Of a stretch of 38,955 nucleotides of DNA, positions 2,642-8,435 are shown piece after piece. This stretch comes from a virus. The translations under genes and the position numbers were made by a program. The stretch spans positions 1 through 38,955 of IMG/VR virus record IMGVR_UViG_3300035034_000386; one strand, given 5' to 3'. The notes under the pieces are model-generated. The model searched no databases and was not told the DNA's origin. It saw nothing but the letters and a program-made list of their open reading frames with translations. The stretch's first letter is position 1. The number at the start of each line of letters is the position of its first letter.

Positions 2642-2802
2642 AAATAAAACGAGCAATACAAATACTAAAAAACCACAATGAATGGAGAAGGTTTAACAGT
2701 ATTGATTTACCAAAAGAATCCGATCCTAAAATGGCTCATCCTAGAGAATTAGGCATAGCCATTGATACAGTAGTAAGTCATTTTGAAAATAAAAAACCAT
2801 GA
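2638..2802 (+). CDS. Small conserved-type phage protein, 54 aa
   Basis: The pattern AIQILKNHNEWRR followed by a PRELGIAIDTVV segment is like a small uncharacterised family often seen in early regions of phages. Its function is unknown. It overlaps the previous gene by ATGA and the following ninG gene by ATGA (2799-2802). That chain of overlaps is strong evidence that it is translated. Confidence 0.65.
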   Translation: MKIKRAIQILKNHNEWRRFNSIDLPKESDPKMAHPRELGIAIDTVVSHFENKKP

Positions 2803-3494
2803 AAGAAAAGATATGCAAAGGAAACCACAGAGTAGAACACTATGAAGGATGTGGAAAATTAGGCTATCCCTATCGGTATGACCTTTGCCATTCTTGTTTC
2901 ATCAAATGGACCCAGACTACAGAAGCAGGAGGCGAGTACATACGTAAAATAACAATACCACAAGCCAAAAAACAAGTTAAGATAGACGGCAAGAAAAAGA
3001 CTCAACAAGAAAACCTAGACTTACTTACAGCAAATCAATACCGCGCAAAGTACTTGCAATACTATATTAATGAAATTGCTAAGATGATTGACAAAGGACA
3101 GATGTGTATTTGTAATCCTAATGTAACTCCTTCAGATGCTGGTCATTTTCTGTCTGTAAAAAGTAGCGGTCATATAGCCTGCAACCTTCACAACATACAC
3201 TTTCAAAGCAGAAATTCAAATGGATTTAAAGGAGGTGAAGACCTAAAATATTACAGAGGATTGATAAGTAGATACGGCTTAAAGTATGCAGACTATTGCG
3301 AAGCATTGCGACAAAGCAAAGTAAGACAGACTAAATTAGGATATATTGAAGCATTAGACAAAGCAAAAGAGTTTCGCCTAATACTTAAGAAGAAAGATTT
3401 AGTCTATACAGCACAGCACAGAATAGAGTTACGCAACCAAGCCAATGAGTTTATAGGATTGTATGAGATAGAATTTACAAAGTTTAACGTTTGA
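2799..3494 (+). CDS. ninG: NinG-like recombination endonuclease, copy 1
   Basis: This 231-residue protein resembles lambda NinG/Rap, a structure-specific nuclease acting on branched recombination intermediates. The N-terminus has a zinc-ribbon-like cysteine set (C6, C18, C30, C33). The central DAGHFLS at about 113-119 and NLHNIHFQSRNSN at about 129-141 match the conserved His/Asn core of the family, followed by the GGEDLKYYRGLI segment. It is a paralogue of the gene at 3910-4605, with no indels between them (constant offset 1111 bp). The last codons double as the upstream box of the next promoter (TTTAACG at 3483-3489). It works logically with the annealing protein and exonuclease at 35.5-36.9 kb. 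Confidence 0.85.
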   Translation: MKEKICKGNHRVEHYEGCGKLGYPYRYDLCHSCFIKWTQTTEAGGEYIRKITIPQAKKQVKIDGKKKTQQENLDLLTANQYRAKYLQYYINEIAKMIDKGQMCICNPNVTPSDAGHFLSVKSSGHIACNLHNIHFQSRNSNGFKGGEDLKYYRGLISRYGLKYADYCEALRQSKVRQTKLGYIEALDKAKEFRLILKKKDLVYTAQHRIELRNQANEFIGLYEIEFTKFNV

Positions 3495-3817: not shown

Positions 3818-3869
3818 TATAAATAAGGTATAGGCGCAATAACTTCCTTTTTCAATAGAACGCAACAAA

Positions 3870-3909: not shown

Positions 3910-4605
3910 ATGAAACAAAAGATATGCAAAGGAAACTACAGAGTAGACAAGTACAAAGGATGCGGAGAGCCTAAGCATATCTTTCGTTATGGTTTATGCC
4001 AGAAGTGTTTTAGTAAGTGGGTGCACTCTACAGAAGCAGGCGGCGAGTACATACGCAAAATAACAATACCACAAGCCAAAAAAGAAGTAAGAATAAAAGA
4101 ACAAAAGCAGACTAAGGAAAAGAAGATCGACCTGCTATCAAAAGACGCTTACAGAAAACAATATCTACAGCCAGTAGTTAATGAGATAGTAAGAATAATA
4201 GACAAAGATCAAGACTGCATTGCTAATGTAGATGCGTTTGCAAGTGATGCAGGACATTTTATAAGCTCAGGTTCTAATCGACAAACAGCGTTGAACCTTC
4301 ATAACATACATTTACAATCTAGGAACTCTAACAGCTTCAAAGGTGGCGAAGATTTAAAATACTACAAGGGCCTCATTAGAAAATACGGCCAGAAATACGC
4401 AGACTTTTGTGAGACATTACGACAAAGCAAACAACGCCACGCAAAGATCGACTACATAGAAGCATTCAGCAAGGCAAAAGAGTTTCGCCTAATACTTAAG
4501 AAGAAAGATTTAGTCTATACAGCACAGCACAGAATAGAGTTACGCAACCAAGCCAACGAGTTTATCGGATTGTATGAACAAGAATTTACAAAGTTTAACG
4601 TTTGA
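3910..4605 (+). CDS. ninG: NinG-like recombination endonuclease, copy 2
   Basis: This 231-residue paralogue of the gene at 2799-3494 has the same cysteine spacing (C6, C18, C30, C33), the same DAGHF core and the same NLHNIHLQSRNSN segment. Its central part (residues about 60-130) differs markedly from copy 1, while residues 188-231 are nearly identical. Two full-length NinG homologues in one small phage genome are uncommon. Both keep the putative catalytic core, so both may be active. It begins right after a strong terminator, and promoter P2 overlaps its 3' end. Confidence 0.85.
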   Translation: MKQKICKGNYRVDKYKGCGEPKHIFRYGLCQKCFSKWVHSTEAGGEYIRKITIPQAKKEVRIKEQKQTKEKKIDLLSKDAYRKQYLQPVVNEIVRIIDKDQDCIANVDAFASDAGHFISSGSNRQTALNLHNIHLQSRNSNSFKGGEDLKYYKGLIRKYGQKYADFCETLRQSKQRHAKIDYIEAFSKAKEFRLILKKKDLVYTAQHRIELRNQANEFIGLYEQEFTKFNV

Positions 4606-4639
4606 CTTGTTTGTTTATCCGTTTGTTGTAACTATATTT
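4474..4639 (+). repeat. Near-identical repeat shared by ninG copy 2 3' end and its promoter
   Basis: Partner of 3363-3528, with five differences in 166 bp. It includes the 3' end of ninG copy 2 and nearly all of promoter P2; the identity stops at the last base of the -7 box (A in P1, G in P2). Confidence 0.85.
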
Positions 4640-4640
4640 G
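4594..4640 (+). promoter_or_regulatory. Extended early promoter P2
   Basis: TTTAACG (4594-4600), nine bases, TTTG (4610-4613), nineteen bases, TATATTTG (4633-4640). It overlaps the end of ninG copy 2 and drives the gene at 4665. The leader has TATAACTAAAA, shared with P4, P5 and P6. Confidence 0.8.
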
Positions 4641-4664
4641 CCTATAACTAAAAACATAAATATT

Positions 4665-4877
4665 ATGACAACTAACGTAAACACATCAGGAGCATCAACA
4701 CAAGACTTTAAAACTATCGACCAAATCATTAACCTAGAGACTAAAAGAAAAGTTAGCAAGGTTTTAAACGCTAAAGACTTTGGAATCTTAACCGCTTGTT
4801 TTATTGATGGTGAGTTTGTTTGTGTAAGTGATTATGATATCACAGAAGAAATTAGAAACAAATTAGAGAAGGCATAA
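4665..4877 (+). CDS. Hypothetical protein, 70 aa
   Basis: This small acidic protein (KTIDQIINLETKRKVSKVL and a DYDITEEIRNKLE tail) belongs to no family I can name. The ATG at 4665 is preferred over an upstream in-frame TTG at 4638. That TTG lies inside the -7 box of promoter P2 and could not be on the transcript. It is followed after 5 nt by the structured RNA element at 4883-4975, so it may be a single-gene unit. Confidence 0.65.
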   Translation: MTTNVNTSGASTQDFKTIDQIINLETKRKVSKVLNAKDFGILTACFIDGEFVCVSDYDITEEIRNKLEKA

Positions 4878-4882
4878 ACAGT

Positions 4883-4975
4883 AAAGGCGGAGTGTAAAAG
4901 CGTTTCTTTAGGTTTAGAAATTACTAAAGATTAAAGACGAAGACAATAGTTCAACGACATACACCGCCTTTTTAA
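4883..4975 (+). ncRNA. Structured RNA element, copy A
   Basis: An outer stem AAAGGCGG (4883-4890) pairs perfectly with CCGCCTTT (4964-4971). Inside, CTTTAG (4906-4911) pairs with CTAAAG (4924-4929) around the loop GTTTAGAAATTA, followed by a conserved single-stranded-looking ATTAAAGACGAAGA. Copy B at 7712-7790 has the same loop and flank, while the hairpin changes to CTTTGG/CCAAAG, a paired change that keeps the base pair. The outer stem ends in TTTTT, so copy A may also terminate transcription from P2. The family and function are unknown to me. Confidence 0.7.
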
Positions 4976-4983
4976 TAAAAACA

Positions 4984-5030
4984 TTTAACATCCGTAAGAT
5001 TTGTATATTTGTTTATTATAATTATATTTA
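4984..5030 (+). promoter_or_regulatory. Extended early promoter P3
   Basis: TTTAACA (4984-4990), nine bases, TTTG (5000-5003), nineteen bases, TATATTTA (5023-5030). It drives the gene at 5065 and probably the downstream run to about 7.6 kb. The leader carries GGCAATTAAGCC, the same short hairpin form as in the P1 leader. Confidence 0.8.
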
Positions 5031-5064
5031 CAAAGGCAATTAAGCCAAATTAAAATTAAATATT

Positions 5065-5367
5065 ATGAAAGTAACACTTAAAGAATTTTTTAATTTAGGA
5101 GACGGTAGACTTTCTACTAAAATTGATGACGTGTATAAAATGTTAAACTACATATTTGACGTTGAATTAATGACTCATCAATTACCAAAAGCAATTAAAC
5201 AATTAGAAGATAAAAATCCAGATTGGTTTTCAAATGCGGTTTCTATTATTAACGATATTAAAAAAAGTAATAATACAAATGACTTTAAAGAATTAATGAA
5301 GATAATAGACAATAGTTTTCCAACCTTAAAAATAGAGCTTAAAAAATATGAAAAAAAAGATTTCTAA
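5065..5367 (+). CDS. Conserved-type phage protein of unknown function, 100 aa
   Basis: The segments KEFFNLGDGRLSTKIDDVYKM and ELMTHQLPKAIKQLE resemble an uncharacterised small protein common in Bacteroidetes phages; I cannot attach a function. It is soluble and mostly helical in appearance, with an acidic/lysine-rich C-terminus. It is the first gene after promoter P3, and its 3' end overlaps the start of a frameshifted zinc-ribbon gene at 5348. Confidence 0.7.
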   Translation: MKVTLKEFFNLGDGRLSTKIDDVYKMLNYIFDVELMTHQLPKAIKQLEDKNPDWFSNAVSIINDIKKSNNTNDFKELMKIIDNSFPTLKIELKKYEKKDF

Positions 5368-5471
5368 AGAAAACTACAAAAAAACTAGAACACTGCAAAT
5401 ATTGTGGTGTAGAAGTAAAAGATAAATTAAAATTATGTGAAGCGTGTTGGCGCAAAGGCTATTTTGGATAA
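5348..5471 (+). pseudogene. Small zinc-ribbon gene interrupted by a +1 frameshift
   Basis: The ATG at 5348 opens a frame that stops early, but the frame one base along encodes a clear zinc ribbon: CKYCG, a basic linker, then CEACW, stop at 5469-5471. That second frame has no start codon of its own (TGA at 5349-5351). The two frames join sensibly if one A is skipped in the seven-A run at 5378-5384, giving about 40 residues with C-x2-C and C-x2-C. Explanations are a homopolymer assembly error, a real inactivating mutation, or slippage on the A run. Coding-like cysteine spacing favours a genuine, possibly still expressed gene. Confidence 0.6.
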
Positions 5472-5493
5472 GAATAATTAAAAAACTAAAACC

Positions 5494-5862
5494 ATGAACG
5501 ATAAACTAGAACTAATTAAAAGACTATTACTACAAGGGCAGACGCTAGAAGACATTAGAATACAAGCTAAGACTTCTTGGAGAATGATCTACAAAGTAAT
5601 AGAAGAAAACGGAATGCAAGAGTTCCGACAAGAGGTTACAAGACGTTACAAAAGCAAAAACTCACAGAGACTAAGAACACCTAGCGTAACTCAAAAAAGA
5701 AACACGACTCTAAAACAATTAGACAGAAAACTATTAGGCAATCAAGTCAAGAATCAGAAGAGACTAGATCAGAAAGTCCTAGACTTAGGATATAAGAATT
5801 GCAGCGAATACATCTCACAGCATGGAGCTATGAGCTTTCGAAATAACATATTAGCAAACTAA
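5494..5862 (+). CDS. Putative DNA-binding protein with N-terminal helix-turn-helix, 122 aa
   Basis: Residues about 5-40 (LIKRLLLQGQTLEDIRIQ, then TSWRMIYKVIEENG) have the pattern of a helix-turn-helix of the kind that reads a short DNA site. The rest is strongly basic, rich in Arg, Lys and Gln, with a C-terminal GYKNCSEYISQHG segment. I do not recognise a full-length family. It is a candidate early transcription regulator. It has the genome's usual AAAACCATG start and lies in the P3 operon. Confidence 0.6.
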   Translation: MNDKLELIKRLLLQGQTLEDIRIQAKTSWRMIYKVIEENGMQEFRQEVTRRYKSKNSQRLRTPSVTQKRNTTLKQLDRKLLGNQVKNQKRLDQKVLDLGYKNCSEYISQHGAMSFRNNILAN

Positions 5863-5875
5863 ACAATTAAAAACT

Positions 5876-6256
5876 ATGAAATTAGAATTAAAACACTTAG
5901 CACCTTATTTGCCTTATGGTTTAATGTGCCAACTAACTGACCAATCAAAAATTAAAGTAGCTAAATTATGCGGAGCTTATACAGATAATAGCTATGCTTT
6001 TTTTGATACTGTAGAAAGTGAACACGGCTACAGTAAAATTAAACCAATACTAAGACCTTTAGCTGATTTAACTTTAATAGGTGAAAAAGGAGAACATTTA
6101 TTTTTTCCATCACATCAATTAATTAAACATTTAGAAAATAATCAAGACATATTTAATTGTGATTATAACGAAATTGACTATTTAATTAGGAATCATTTTG
6201 ACGTATTCGGACTAATAGAAAAAGGACTAGCGATTGATATAAATAAACTTAAATAA
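5876..6256 (+). CDS. Conserved-type phage protein of unknown function, 126 aa
   Basis: The N-terminal LKHLAPYLPYGLMCQL and the central KIKPILRPLADLT resemble an uncharacterised protein seen repeatedly in early regions of Bacteroidetes phages and prophages. The fold looks mixed alpha/beta, with no membrane segment. Its stop codon overlaps the start of the DnaA-like gene (TAATG at 6254-6258), suggesting coupled translation and perhaps a shared role. Confidence 0.7.
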   Translation: MKLELKHLAPYLPYGLMCQLTDQSKIKVAKLCGAYTDNSYAFFDTVESEHGYSKIKPILRPLADLTLIGEKGEHLFFPSHQLIKHLENNQDIFNCDYNEIDYLIRNHFDVFGLIEKGLAIDINKLK

Positions 6257-6666
6257 TGGAAGAGATAGAACAACTATTAGCACAGCTAAAGAAAGATGAA
6301 GCGGTTTTACATAAGAAATTTCAAGAAAAAGTATTAAAATTATATGAGAGTAAACAAAATAAATATAAAGACGAAAGCTTTGCATCTTTAAAATATCTTA
6401 TAGAATCCGTTTTTGCAATACCAGAATTATTTATTATAAGTAGAAAAGATTATAATGTAGCTGCCAGAAGCATTTTTGATTATATTATTAATAATGAAGA
6501 CACTTATACTTATTCCAGCATAGCGAGAGAAACAAAAAGAGACAGAACAACCGTAATGCACTCAGTAGAAAACTATGAAATATTTTCAAAAAGTCCTGAG
6601 TATAAGGGAAAGTATGAAACTATCATAAGTCTATACGCTAAGAATAAGAGTAATACAACGAATTAA
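6256..6666 (+). CDS. DnaA domain-IV-like DNA-binding protein, 136 aa
   Basis: The N-terminal third is a charged helical segment. Residues about 66-108 resemble the DNA-binding domain IV of the replication initiator DnaA: ARSIFDYII, then YTYSSIARETKRDRTTVMHS, comparable to the GRDHTTV-H signature of DnaA. The ATPase domain of DnaA is absent. Stand-alone versions of this domain occur in phages and could bind DnaA boxes, either as a regulator or as a competitor of host initiation. The function here is inference; the family resemblance is fairly clear. It is translationally coupled to the upstream gene. Confidence 0.75.
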   Translation: MEEIEQLLAQLKKDEAVLHKKFQEKVLKLYESKQNKYKDESFASLKYLIESVFAIPELFIISRKDYNVAARSIFDYIINNEDTYTYSSIARETKRDRTTVMHSVENYEIFSKSPEYKGKYETIISLYAKNKSNTTN

Positions 6667-6692
6667 TAAAAATAAGATAAATAACACGAATT

Positions 6693-6911
6693 ATGGCACA
6701 CGATAAATATGTAGGTAAATCAAAAATATACAAAGGTGTATATCTATACAGAAGAAACGGAAGACAAGACACTTATTCTGGAGAGATACAAAAAAAGAAA
6801 AAACTAGGATTTGAAACAGAGAGAGAAGCTGCTATCTGGGTAGACATGAGACTAATCGAAGCAGGTAAAGAGCCTGTTAATATTTTAAAACGTAAAAAAT
6901 TACAATCATGA
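6693..6911 (+). CDS. AP2-like small DNA-binding protein, 72 aa
   Basis: Residues about 9-65 follow the AP2/ERF-like fold pattern: YKGVYLYRRNGR, a beta-strand segment YSGEIQKKKKLG, then FETEREAAIWVDMRLIEAG and a final N. In phages this domain is usually fused to an HNH nuclease or an integrase; here it stands alone and is basic. A DNA-binding accessory or regulatory role is likely. Its stop overlaps the next start (ATGA at 6908-6911). Confidence 0.7.
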   Translation: MAHDKYVGKSKIYKGVYLYRRNGRQDTYSGEIQKKKKLGFETEREAAIWVDMRLIEAGKEPVNILKRKKLQS

Positions 6912-7033
6912 CACAAGAAAAAATTGCACAATGGGTAATAGATAACAGATACCCAAAAAGTGTATATAACAATAAGAGCGATCTTGAAATGTACACTACT
7001 ATAATAGAAATGATACAAAAACTAGAATCATGA
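6908..7033 (+). CDS. Hypothetical small protein, 41 aa
   Basis: This short helical protein (MTQEKIAQWVIDNRYPKSVY at its start) has no family I can name. ATGA overlaps with both neighbours (6908-6911 and 7030-7033) make translation likely. It belongs to the P3 early operon. Confidence 0.6.
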   Translation: MTQEKIAQWVIDNRYPKSVYNNKSDLEMYTTIIEMIQKLES

Positions 7034-7173
7034 GATATTTTATAATACACTTTCAACTAAGAAAAAGAGTACTAACAATGAAGCTAAAAAAGATACTCGA
7101 ATACTATAAGGCATATAAAAAGTATTGCAAATTAGTAGACGAATTAATTAAGCAAAAAACAAATCAATCATGA
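7030..7173 (+). CDS. Hypothetical small basic protein, 47 aa
   Basis: A lysine- and tyrosine-rich, probably helical small protein with no recognised family. It is locked into the operon by ATGA overlaps at both ends (7030-7033 and 7170-7173). An internal ATG at residue 18 could be an alternative start. Confidence 0.55.
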   Translation: MRYFIIHFQLRKRVLTMKLKKILEYYKAYKKYCKLVDELIKQKTNQS

Positions 7174-7679
7174 AAAAAAACGAAAAACTAAAAGCAATAG
7201 TAAGAGAGTGGCTAGAGAACAAGATAGGCTTTTCACTATCTGATAAACTAGCAATTAAAATGGTTGCTGAGATTATTGAAACAGAAGATGAAATAAAAGT
7301 AGGTAACAATAATATAAATAAAGAATATATTGGCTCATCTAATGGAGAAAGATGGGGACAATTTGGAGAGCCTAACGGAACATTGCGTGAAGCTCTTGAG
7401 CAAGCTTCGGAATATTTAAAAACTCAAGACAGCACAATACATTATAAAAGCGAAAAGGATAAGCTAGAGGATAAAGAAGAAAGCGACTGGATAAGTGTAA
7501 CCGATAGAATGCCAGAAGAAAGCGAACATAGATTTAGTGAAAATGTTTTAATTTATTATTCACTAGGATTAATATTAATAGGATTTACTCATAGGGGATT
7601 TTGGGAAAGCGATGCGCAAACATTAAAAAATGAAGAAGTAACACATTGGAGACACCTACCAGAACCACCAAAACAATAA
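7170..7679 (+). CDS. DUF551-containing protein, 169 aa
   Basis: The C-terminal part from residue about 106 matches the DUF551 pattern: SDWISVTDRMPEE, a VLIYY strand, and a VTHWRHLPEPPK end. The N-terminal 60 residues are helical and acidic, and residues 45-75 contain a Gly/Asn-rich stretch. DUF551 proteins are frequent in phage early regions; their biochemical role is not established. It is the last gene of the P3 operon before the second structured RNA and the terminase genes. Confidence 0.75.
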   Translation: MKKNEKLKAIVREWLENKIGFSLSDKLAIKMVAEIIETEDEIKVGNNNINKEYIGSSNGERWGQFGEPNGTLREALEQASEYLKTQDSTIHYKSEKDKLEDKEESDWISVTDRMPEESEHRFSENVLIYYSLGLILIGFTHRGFWESDAQTLKNEEVTHWRHLPEPPKQ

Positions 7680-7691
7680 ACTAAAGTTTTG

Positions 7692-7699
7692 TATATTTG
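7692..7699 (+). promoter_or_regulatory. -7 box of a probable promoter for the terminase operon
   Basis: TATATTTG is a perfect -7 box, 12 nt after the end of the DUF551 gene and directly before structured RNA copy B. The upstream TTTAACR and TTTG boxes found at the early promoters are missing, so this may be a promoter of a different temporal class (late). Confidence 0.5.
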
Positions 7700-7711
7700 T
7701 ATTAAATTAAT

Positions 7712-7790
7712 AGGGGTCTAGCACGATACTTTGGGTTTAGAAATTACCAAAGATTAAAGACGAAGATAAGAGTTCATCGACAGGCCCTTT
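7712..7790 (+). ncRNA. Structured RNA element, copy B, in the terminase leader
   Basis: The outer stem AGGGGTCT (7712-7719) pairs with AGGCCCTT (7782-7789), including two G-U pairs. CTTTGG (7729-7734) pairs with CCAAAG (7747-7752) around the same GTTTAGAAATTA loop as copy A. The following ATTAAAGACGAAGA is also identical. The outer stems of the two copies differ in sequence but both pair, which supports a conserved structure. It lies 17 nt upstream of the small terminase gene, so a role in controlling terS or in packaging is possible; neither is shown by sequence alone. Confidence 0.7.
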
Positions 7791-7807
7791 ATTAAAAAAT
7801 AAAAAAA

Positions 7808-8254
7808 ATGGCATCATACACTAAAGAAGACAAAGACAATATACTAAACAACATTTTTGACGCCATAACACAAGGTCAAGCGGTACGTAATGCGATTAAA
7901 AAAGAGAATATATCTTTCTCTACGTTTTACATCTGGTTAGATGACGATGAAGACAAAGCGAAACAATACGCGCGCGCAACCGAGATAAGAGCTGAAGCAA
8001 TGGCTGAAGACATACTAGAAATATGTGACGCCTTTGAAAACGATATAATGCTAGATCAAGACGGCAAAGAGATAACCAATCACAACGTTATTCAGAGAGA
8101 CCGACTAAGAGTAGACACACGCAAGTGGCTAATGTCTAAGATGATGCCTAAGAAGTACAGCGATAGACAACAGATCGACCATACCACAGACGGCAAGAGC
8201 TTAAACACTCCATTAATGAACCTAGACCCACTTAAAATAAAAGAATCAAAATAA
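7808..8254 (+). CDS. terS: Terminase small subunit
   Basis: This 148-residue protein has the Sf6-like small-terminase layout. There is an N-terminal helix-turn-helix (AVRNAIKKENISFSTFYIWL, residues about 28-47), then a helical oligomerisation segment (QYARATEIRAEAMAEDILEI). The conserved C-terminal RLRVDTRKWLMSKMMPKKY at about 113-131 is a hallmark of the family. It recognises packaging sites on phage DNA and hands them to the large subunit, which is encoded 0.6 kb downstream. Structured RNA copy B lies in its leader. Confidence 0.85.
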   Translation: MASYTKEDKDNILNNIFDAITQGQAVRNAIKKENISFSTFYIWLDDDEDKAKQYARATEIRAEAMAEDILEICDAFENDIMLDQDGKEITNHNVIQRDRLRVDTRKWLMSKMMPKKYSDRQQIDHTTDGKSLNTPLMNLDPLKIKESK

Positions 8255-8378: not shown

Positions 8379-8435
8379 TCTCCCACGTGTGGAGAGGTAG
8401 CACTAAACCCTTATAAACAGTACAAACCTAAAATT

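Follow-up and report, generated by a model that had tools for sequence, protein, structure and literature searches.

Two copies of one element

Why does a phage carry the same small structured element twice, once at the end of a single-gene unit and once ahead of the gene for the small terminase subunit (terS)? The window, by which we mean the whole stretch of DNA analyzed, is the 38,955-base IMG/VR virus record IMGVR_UViG_3300035034_000386. It represents a tailed phage whose gene set includes NinG, an Sf6-type TerS, TerL, a portal, a tape measure, an endolysin, and replication genes. In a portal comparison, the closest cultured relatives infect Olleya, Flavobacterium, and Cellulophaga, and thus the host is probably a flavobacterium. 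The gene that precedes the first copy (copy A) encodes 71 aa and has no PHROG/Pfam match; upstream of it lie two NinG-like junction endonuclease genes (PHROG/Pfam NinG; 2799-3494 and 3910-4605) with 415 nt between them.

A sequence-only reading had placed the two elements at 4883-4975 and 7712-7790. Both are real, with the better boundaries given in Table 1. The loop GTTTAGAAATTA and the flank ATTAAAGACGAAGA are identical in the two, exactly as that reading described, and the window contains a 32-nt core pattern two times, against zero expected by chance. The common plan consists of P1, a 4-nt joint, P2 (4 bp), a single base, and P3 (6 bp) capped by the 12-nt loop, followed on the 3' side by the strand ATTAAAGACGAAGA.AA.AGTTC, P2', ACA, and P1'. 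The two copies further have a 3' segment, AGTTCA.CGACA, in common, so that the shared part is longer than first noted. Divergence is unevenly distributed: the copies differ at 0/12 loop positions and 2/23 strand positions, and at 7/8 compared positions in P1, which is nonetheless still paired. The outer stems had been described as diverged yet pairing over 8 bp; the pairing holds, while P1 is in fact longer, at 8 + 4 bp in copy A and, interrupted by a one-base bulge, 13 bp in copy B.

Table 1. Positions of the two copies and neighboring features in the window, and of the type 2 RNA in other contigs
Feature	Position	Strand	Remarks
-7 box TATATTTG of the one-gene unit ending in copy A	4633..4640	+	TANNTTTG scan
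71-aa gene, function not assigned	4662..4877	+	copy A starts 6 nt past stop codon
Copy A of RNA	4883..4971	+	89 nt, P1 to P1'
Copy A, P1	4883-4890/4964-4971 plus 4893-4896/4960-4963		
Copy A, P2	4901-4904/4953-4956		
Copy A, P3	4906-4911/4924-4929		
Copy A, loop	4912-4923		
Copy A, conserved strand	4930-4952		
P1 3' arm of copy A and T run CCGCCTTTTTAA	4964..4977	+	intrinsic-terminator shape, RNA domain apical
-7 box TATATTTG of the next transcription unit	5004..5011	+	TANNTTTG scan; downstream of copy A
-7 box TATATTTG before copy B	7692..7699	+	TANNTTTG scan; identical promoter in L003, L004, L006
Copy B of RNA	7707..7795	+	89 nt, P1 to P1'
Copy B, P1	7707-7719/7782-7795		
Copy B, P2	7724-7727/7776-7779		
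Copy B, P3	7729-7734/7747-7752		
Copy B, loop	7735-7746		
Copy B, conserved strand	7753-7775		
terS, Sf6-type terminase small subunit	7808..8254	+	start 12 nt after copy B
Type 2 RNA	L156:2937-3028; L035:10151-10242; L170:1896-2030; L167:4133-4224		also in L168, L171-L177

Evidence for a folded RNA

Within the 10 pairs of P2 and P3, 4 of the 20 bases differ between the copies, and they form exactly two complete compensated pairs: T-A to A-T in P2 (CGTT/AACG in A, CGAT/ATCG in B) and A-T to G-C in P3. The sequence-only reading had missed P2 but gave P3 exactly (CTTTAG/CTAAAG versus CTTTGG/CCAAAG), its two substituted bases amounting to one changed pair. When four substitutions are placed at random, all ten pairs stay Watson-Crick with P = 1.0e-3 and remain standard pairs with P = 6e-3. 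The earlier suggestion of selection on RNA structure is thus supported by the P2/P3 changes (P about 0.001). As in structured noncoding RNAs, helices are kept by compensatory changes, two in P2/P3 with P1 diverged yet paired, across few sequences; effectively two distinct sequence versions are known, and covariation is therefore limited. A coding explanation was rejected, as the reading frame that runs through the core of copy B without a stop meets a TAA in copy A.

Compared with shuffled sequences, single-sequence folding on the plus strand gives z = -3.4 for copy A and z = -2.5 for copy B. On the minus strand, the structure of copy B is weaker (z = -1.2), which favors a plus-strand RNA. The alignment fold is moderately better than that of shuffles (z = -2.4, from only 2-3 distinct sequences). 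Pair probabilities are modest for P2 in copy B (0.3) and for P3 in copy A (0.21) because alternative pairings exist: CTTTR is able to pair with either of two AAAG repeats. This predicted competition in P3 of copy A and P2 of copy B could be a switch or mere noise.

Promoter and terminator context

In the window, TANNTTTG boxes, the Bacteroidetes -7 element, occur at 3.0 per kb in intergenic sequence versus 0.56 per kb in coding sequence. Transcription from the box at 7692 is predicted to start at about 7705-7707, that is, at the first base of copy B. Copy A is the terminator of the 71-aa gene unit (AAAGGCGG...CCGCCTTTTT). The sequence-only reading was right for the window on both placements, with copy A following a one-gene unit and ending in a T run, and copy B forming the leader of terS.

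These positions bring up a possible cis effect on the next genes, and specifically transcription control, in which copies A and B would be regulated terminators or antitermination leaders that answer to one phage or host factor and switch the packaging operon together with the region after the 71-aa gene. We regard this as possible, if doubtful. Copy B lies between its promoter and the packaging operon, with no further -7 box before terS, copy A is terminator-shaped and stands ahead of the next operon, and the alternative pairing of CTTTR would make a two-state switch feasible. However, copy B lacks a strong T run, read-through at copy A would be needless since that operon has its own promoter downstream of copy A, and there is no candidate antiterminator protein among the genes scanned.

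The position of copy B in related phages

Comparison of the site of copy B (slot B) across related contigs separates the RNA from terS. In L003, the copy is directly upstream of terS and the gene upstream of the block differs, while in L004/L005 the identical promoter-RNA block is followed by a 73-aa gene, with terS about 400 nt farther on. The block is thus kept with different neighboring genes in L003 and L004. Both of these contigs have GTTTAGACATTA as the loop, and in P1 of L003 one U-G pair has become U-A with pairing kept. L006, whose TerS is 92% identical, has the same 29-nt promoter, followed by a different, ORF-free leader of about 150 nt and then by a small GC hairpin and seven Ts, an arrangement that speaks for the cis-control reading. 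In L035, whose TerL is 97% identical, another small gene occupies the place of terS, and no copy was found within about 8.6 kb upstream of terL.

Association with terS or the terminase is therefore not constant, being broken by L004/L005, L006, and L035, and neither terS regulation nor packaging can be the general job of the RNA. Both roles had been put forward in the sequence-only reading, none of whose specific proposals is supported. A terS-specific leader, or a packaging RNA or pac signal, fits the immediate placement of the RNA before terS in the window and in L003, but the L004 copy precedes another gene, copy A is 2.8 kb away, and no copy is present in relatives whose TerS or TerL is almost the same. 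Moreover, the phi29-type pRNA partners an ATPase of a different class. We consider this alternative very unlikely.

Two leader-like sequences were noted in this region. The L006 leader (L006:88-260) contains a tRNA T-arm-like CAGGTTCGATTCCTG and then AAACCCTTATA, is ORF-free, and is recognized by neither ARAGORN nor Rfam. A 12-nt stretch within it, ATTAAAGATGAA, resembles the conserved strand of our RNA, which we refer to as type 1; the resemblance is suggestive and not significant. Between terS and terL, a recurrent leader-like element (window 8380-8427; L035:8560-8604; also L006, L007, L034, and L036) consists of a hairpin TCTCCAC..GTGGAGA followed by GGTAGCAC.AAACCC.TATAAACAGTAC just before start codons; in L034, it occurs twice in tandem in a diverged form.

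The position of copy A and a second RNA

At the site of copy A (slot A), we compared eleven relatives of the 71-aa gene. Two of these (L156 and L165/L035) have an unrelated RNA with the core AAGGAGAGAGAACTYCCGAATAAAC, which we call type 2, inside the terminator stem; in the remaining nine (L157-L164 and L166), its place is taken by a short, plain GC hairpin. That slot A of relatives holds an unrelated RNA or a plain hairpin weighs against the cis-control reading. The unit itself lies after terL in L035 and L036 and before the DUF7736 gene in the window, and it thus moves like a moron. In L035 (9952-10141), the 71-aa gene has an apparent deletion relative to L036, and the type 2 RNA is intact.

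The type 2 core is present in 12 viral contigs, where it either stands alone or lies on the 3' side of the 71-aa gene, of a gene for a 99-aa protein, or of a DNA methylase gene; unrelated phages thus have it as well, behind other genes. When eight copies were aligned with manual curation, the alignment folded de novo into P1, P2, P2b, and P3 around a 3-way junction, with compensated changes in nearly all pairs of P1, P2, and P3. The RNAalifold energy is -27.5 versus -3.7 +/- 2.5 for column shuffles (z = -9.7). No Rfam family corresponds to it, and type 2 is a well-supported new RNA family with strong covariation. Kinship between types 1 and 2 was considered and rejected, as their topologies differ and they have no sequence in common; we treat them as unrelated. 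Separately, a conserved intergenic motif, TATAGGCGCA.TAACTTC...TCAATAGAACGC, lies before a terminator in the window (3828-3864) and adjoins or is near type 2 in other contigs (L003:9149, L167:4260, L168:2946, and L175:9386).

Since close relatives either have or lack a copy at one and the same site and the 71-aa unit shifts between locations, one could suppose a small mobile or recombination-borne DNA cassette that folds by chance and is without function for the phage. The compensated changes and the invariant loop and strand argue instead for constraint at the RNA level, and we recognized neither a target-site duplication nor multi-copy spread in genomes. A cassette of this kind is unlikely.

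Distribution

We searched with covariance model R1 in about 1 Mb of TerL/TerS relatives, in 395 + 396 Bacteroidota genomes, and in one cultured relative. Further copies were found only in two IMG/VR contigs, L003 and L004, both in the copy-B form. A covariance search had been proposed alongside the sequence-only reading; it has thus yielded two more copies with stems kept, and no new covarying lineage. In the 791 sampled genomes, which are two draws of Bacteroidota (first by class, then by order) that are not fully disjoint, the only matches were in open frames or simple sequence; the last of these searches had no positive control. The hits in L119, L120/L170, L124, and L076 lie in open frames and were rejected, as were one in L123, which is AAAGACC low-complexity sequence, and the repeated hits in G001, which belong to an unrelated 83-bp tandem repeat of AAAGAC-type sequence. 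Exact and relaxed core patterns found nothing beyond L003 and L004 in IMG/VR viral contigs and GTDB genomes; other matches were coding-like or lacked the remainder of the element.

The window has no match in Rfam 15 at the gathering threshold. At E up to 5, either copy gave only the chance-level hits MIR397, ncr1015, and KCNQ1OT1_1, all on the other strand, in agreement with the earlier impression that no known family is represented. BLAST against phages and plasmids returned nothing relevant, and start regions of the phage itself gave antisense matches no better than those of shuffled queries. We conclude that type 1 is a new RNA family, not described before.

Phage RNAs that stand alone, are structured, have a promoter, and can be exchanged match the general picture of RNA anti-CRISPRs (PMC10651486), and type 1 shares with these Racrs that it is a small structured RNA unit encoded by a phage. 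It might accordingly be a decoy or mimic against host defense, such as a CRISPR-repeat mimic. However, at E up to 5 neither copy matches any CRISPR repeat family in Rfam, a Cas context is lacking, and no related repeat array was found, the sole array-like set of hits being the tandem repeat noted above. We find a decoy role highly improbable.

A proposed portable RNA module

Our leading explanation, offered with some reserve, is that both copies are one portable structured phage RNA that exerts its effect on a shared partner by way of the conserved loop and strand. Such a module fits better than a gene-specific leader because the loop and strand are fixed, P1 is free to vary as long as it pairs, and the neighboring genes change. 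The module would comprise about 89 nt, with a P1 of free sequence, a 4-bp P2, a 6-bp P3 whose 12-nt loop is fixed, and a 23-nt strand that is likewise fixed, and its sites would be the borders of transcription units. Copy B would be the first stretch transcribed from its own promoter, and copy A would form part of the terminator hairpin of a moron-like unit with a single gene. The loop and strand most likely bind a partner, either a protein or another RNA, that is common to both loci, with P1 serving as a clamp and, in copy A, also as the terminator. We infer that the element is transcribed, that it binds its partner, and that it works as a small RNA and not by way of the neighboring gene. The partner may meet either a free small RNA, as copy B and the equivalent stretch of L006 have the look of a promoter plus an RNA, or a nascent leader or terminator, as in control of the lambda or HK022 kind.

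Several known systems invite comparison. HK022 put, lambda nut, and the qut-tR' leader are small structured RNA elements, two per genome, located after promoters or around terminators, and HK022 put and lambda pR'-tR' (Q) are models of antitermination control. The window phage likewise has two small structured elements near a promoter or terminator, and copy B has a put-like placement, downstream of a promoter and upstream of the operon that it would control, while copy A is itself terminator-shaped. Type 1 nevertheless has no sequence or Rfam similarity to these elements, and it differs from them in that one copy belongs to a single-gene terminator and that an unrelated RNA takes its place in relatives. 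The skipping-rope RNA (RF02924) is listed among phage ncRNAs (PMC8501573). Type 1 does not match it at all, and the hairpin likeness of type 2 is sub-threshold (21.4 bits versus a gathering threshold of 36.7), with the skipping-rope outer stem missing at the aligned position. Finally, the copy-A unit resembles phage morons in being a promoter, a single gene, and a terminator placed differently in related phages; unlike in morons, its terminator bears a conserved structured RNA domain, the kind of which differs between phages.

Small RNAs of phages that infect Bacteroidota appear to be little studied, and we found no paper on them in the literature searched. The exchange of RNAs within the same slot rests on a handful of contigs, from which we tentatively conjecture, with more doubt than for the module itself, that flavobacterial phages might have fixed slots, namely the terminator of the one-gene unit and the promoter ahead of the packaging operon, in which unrelated structured small RNAs are swapped like protein morons, forming an accessory RNA arsenal. 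If unrelated structured RNAs do share slots in related phages, they would constitute a layer of accessory RNAs that is comparable to protein morons and directly testable.
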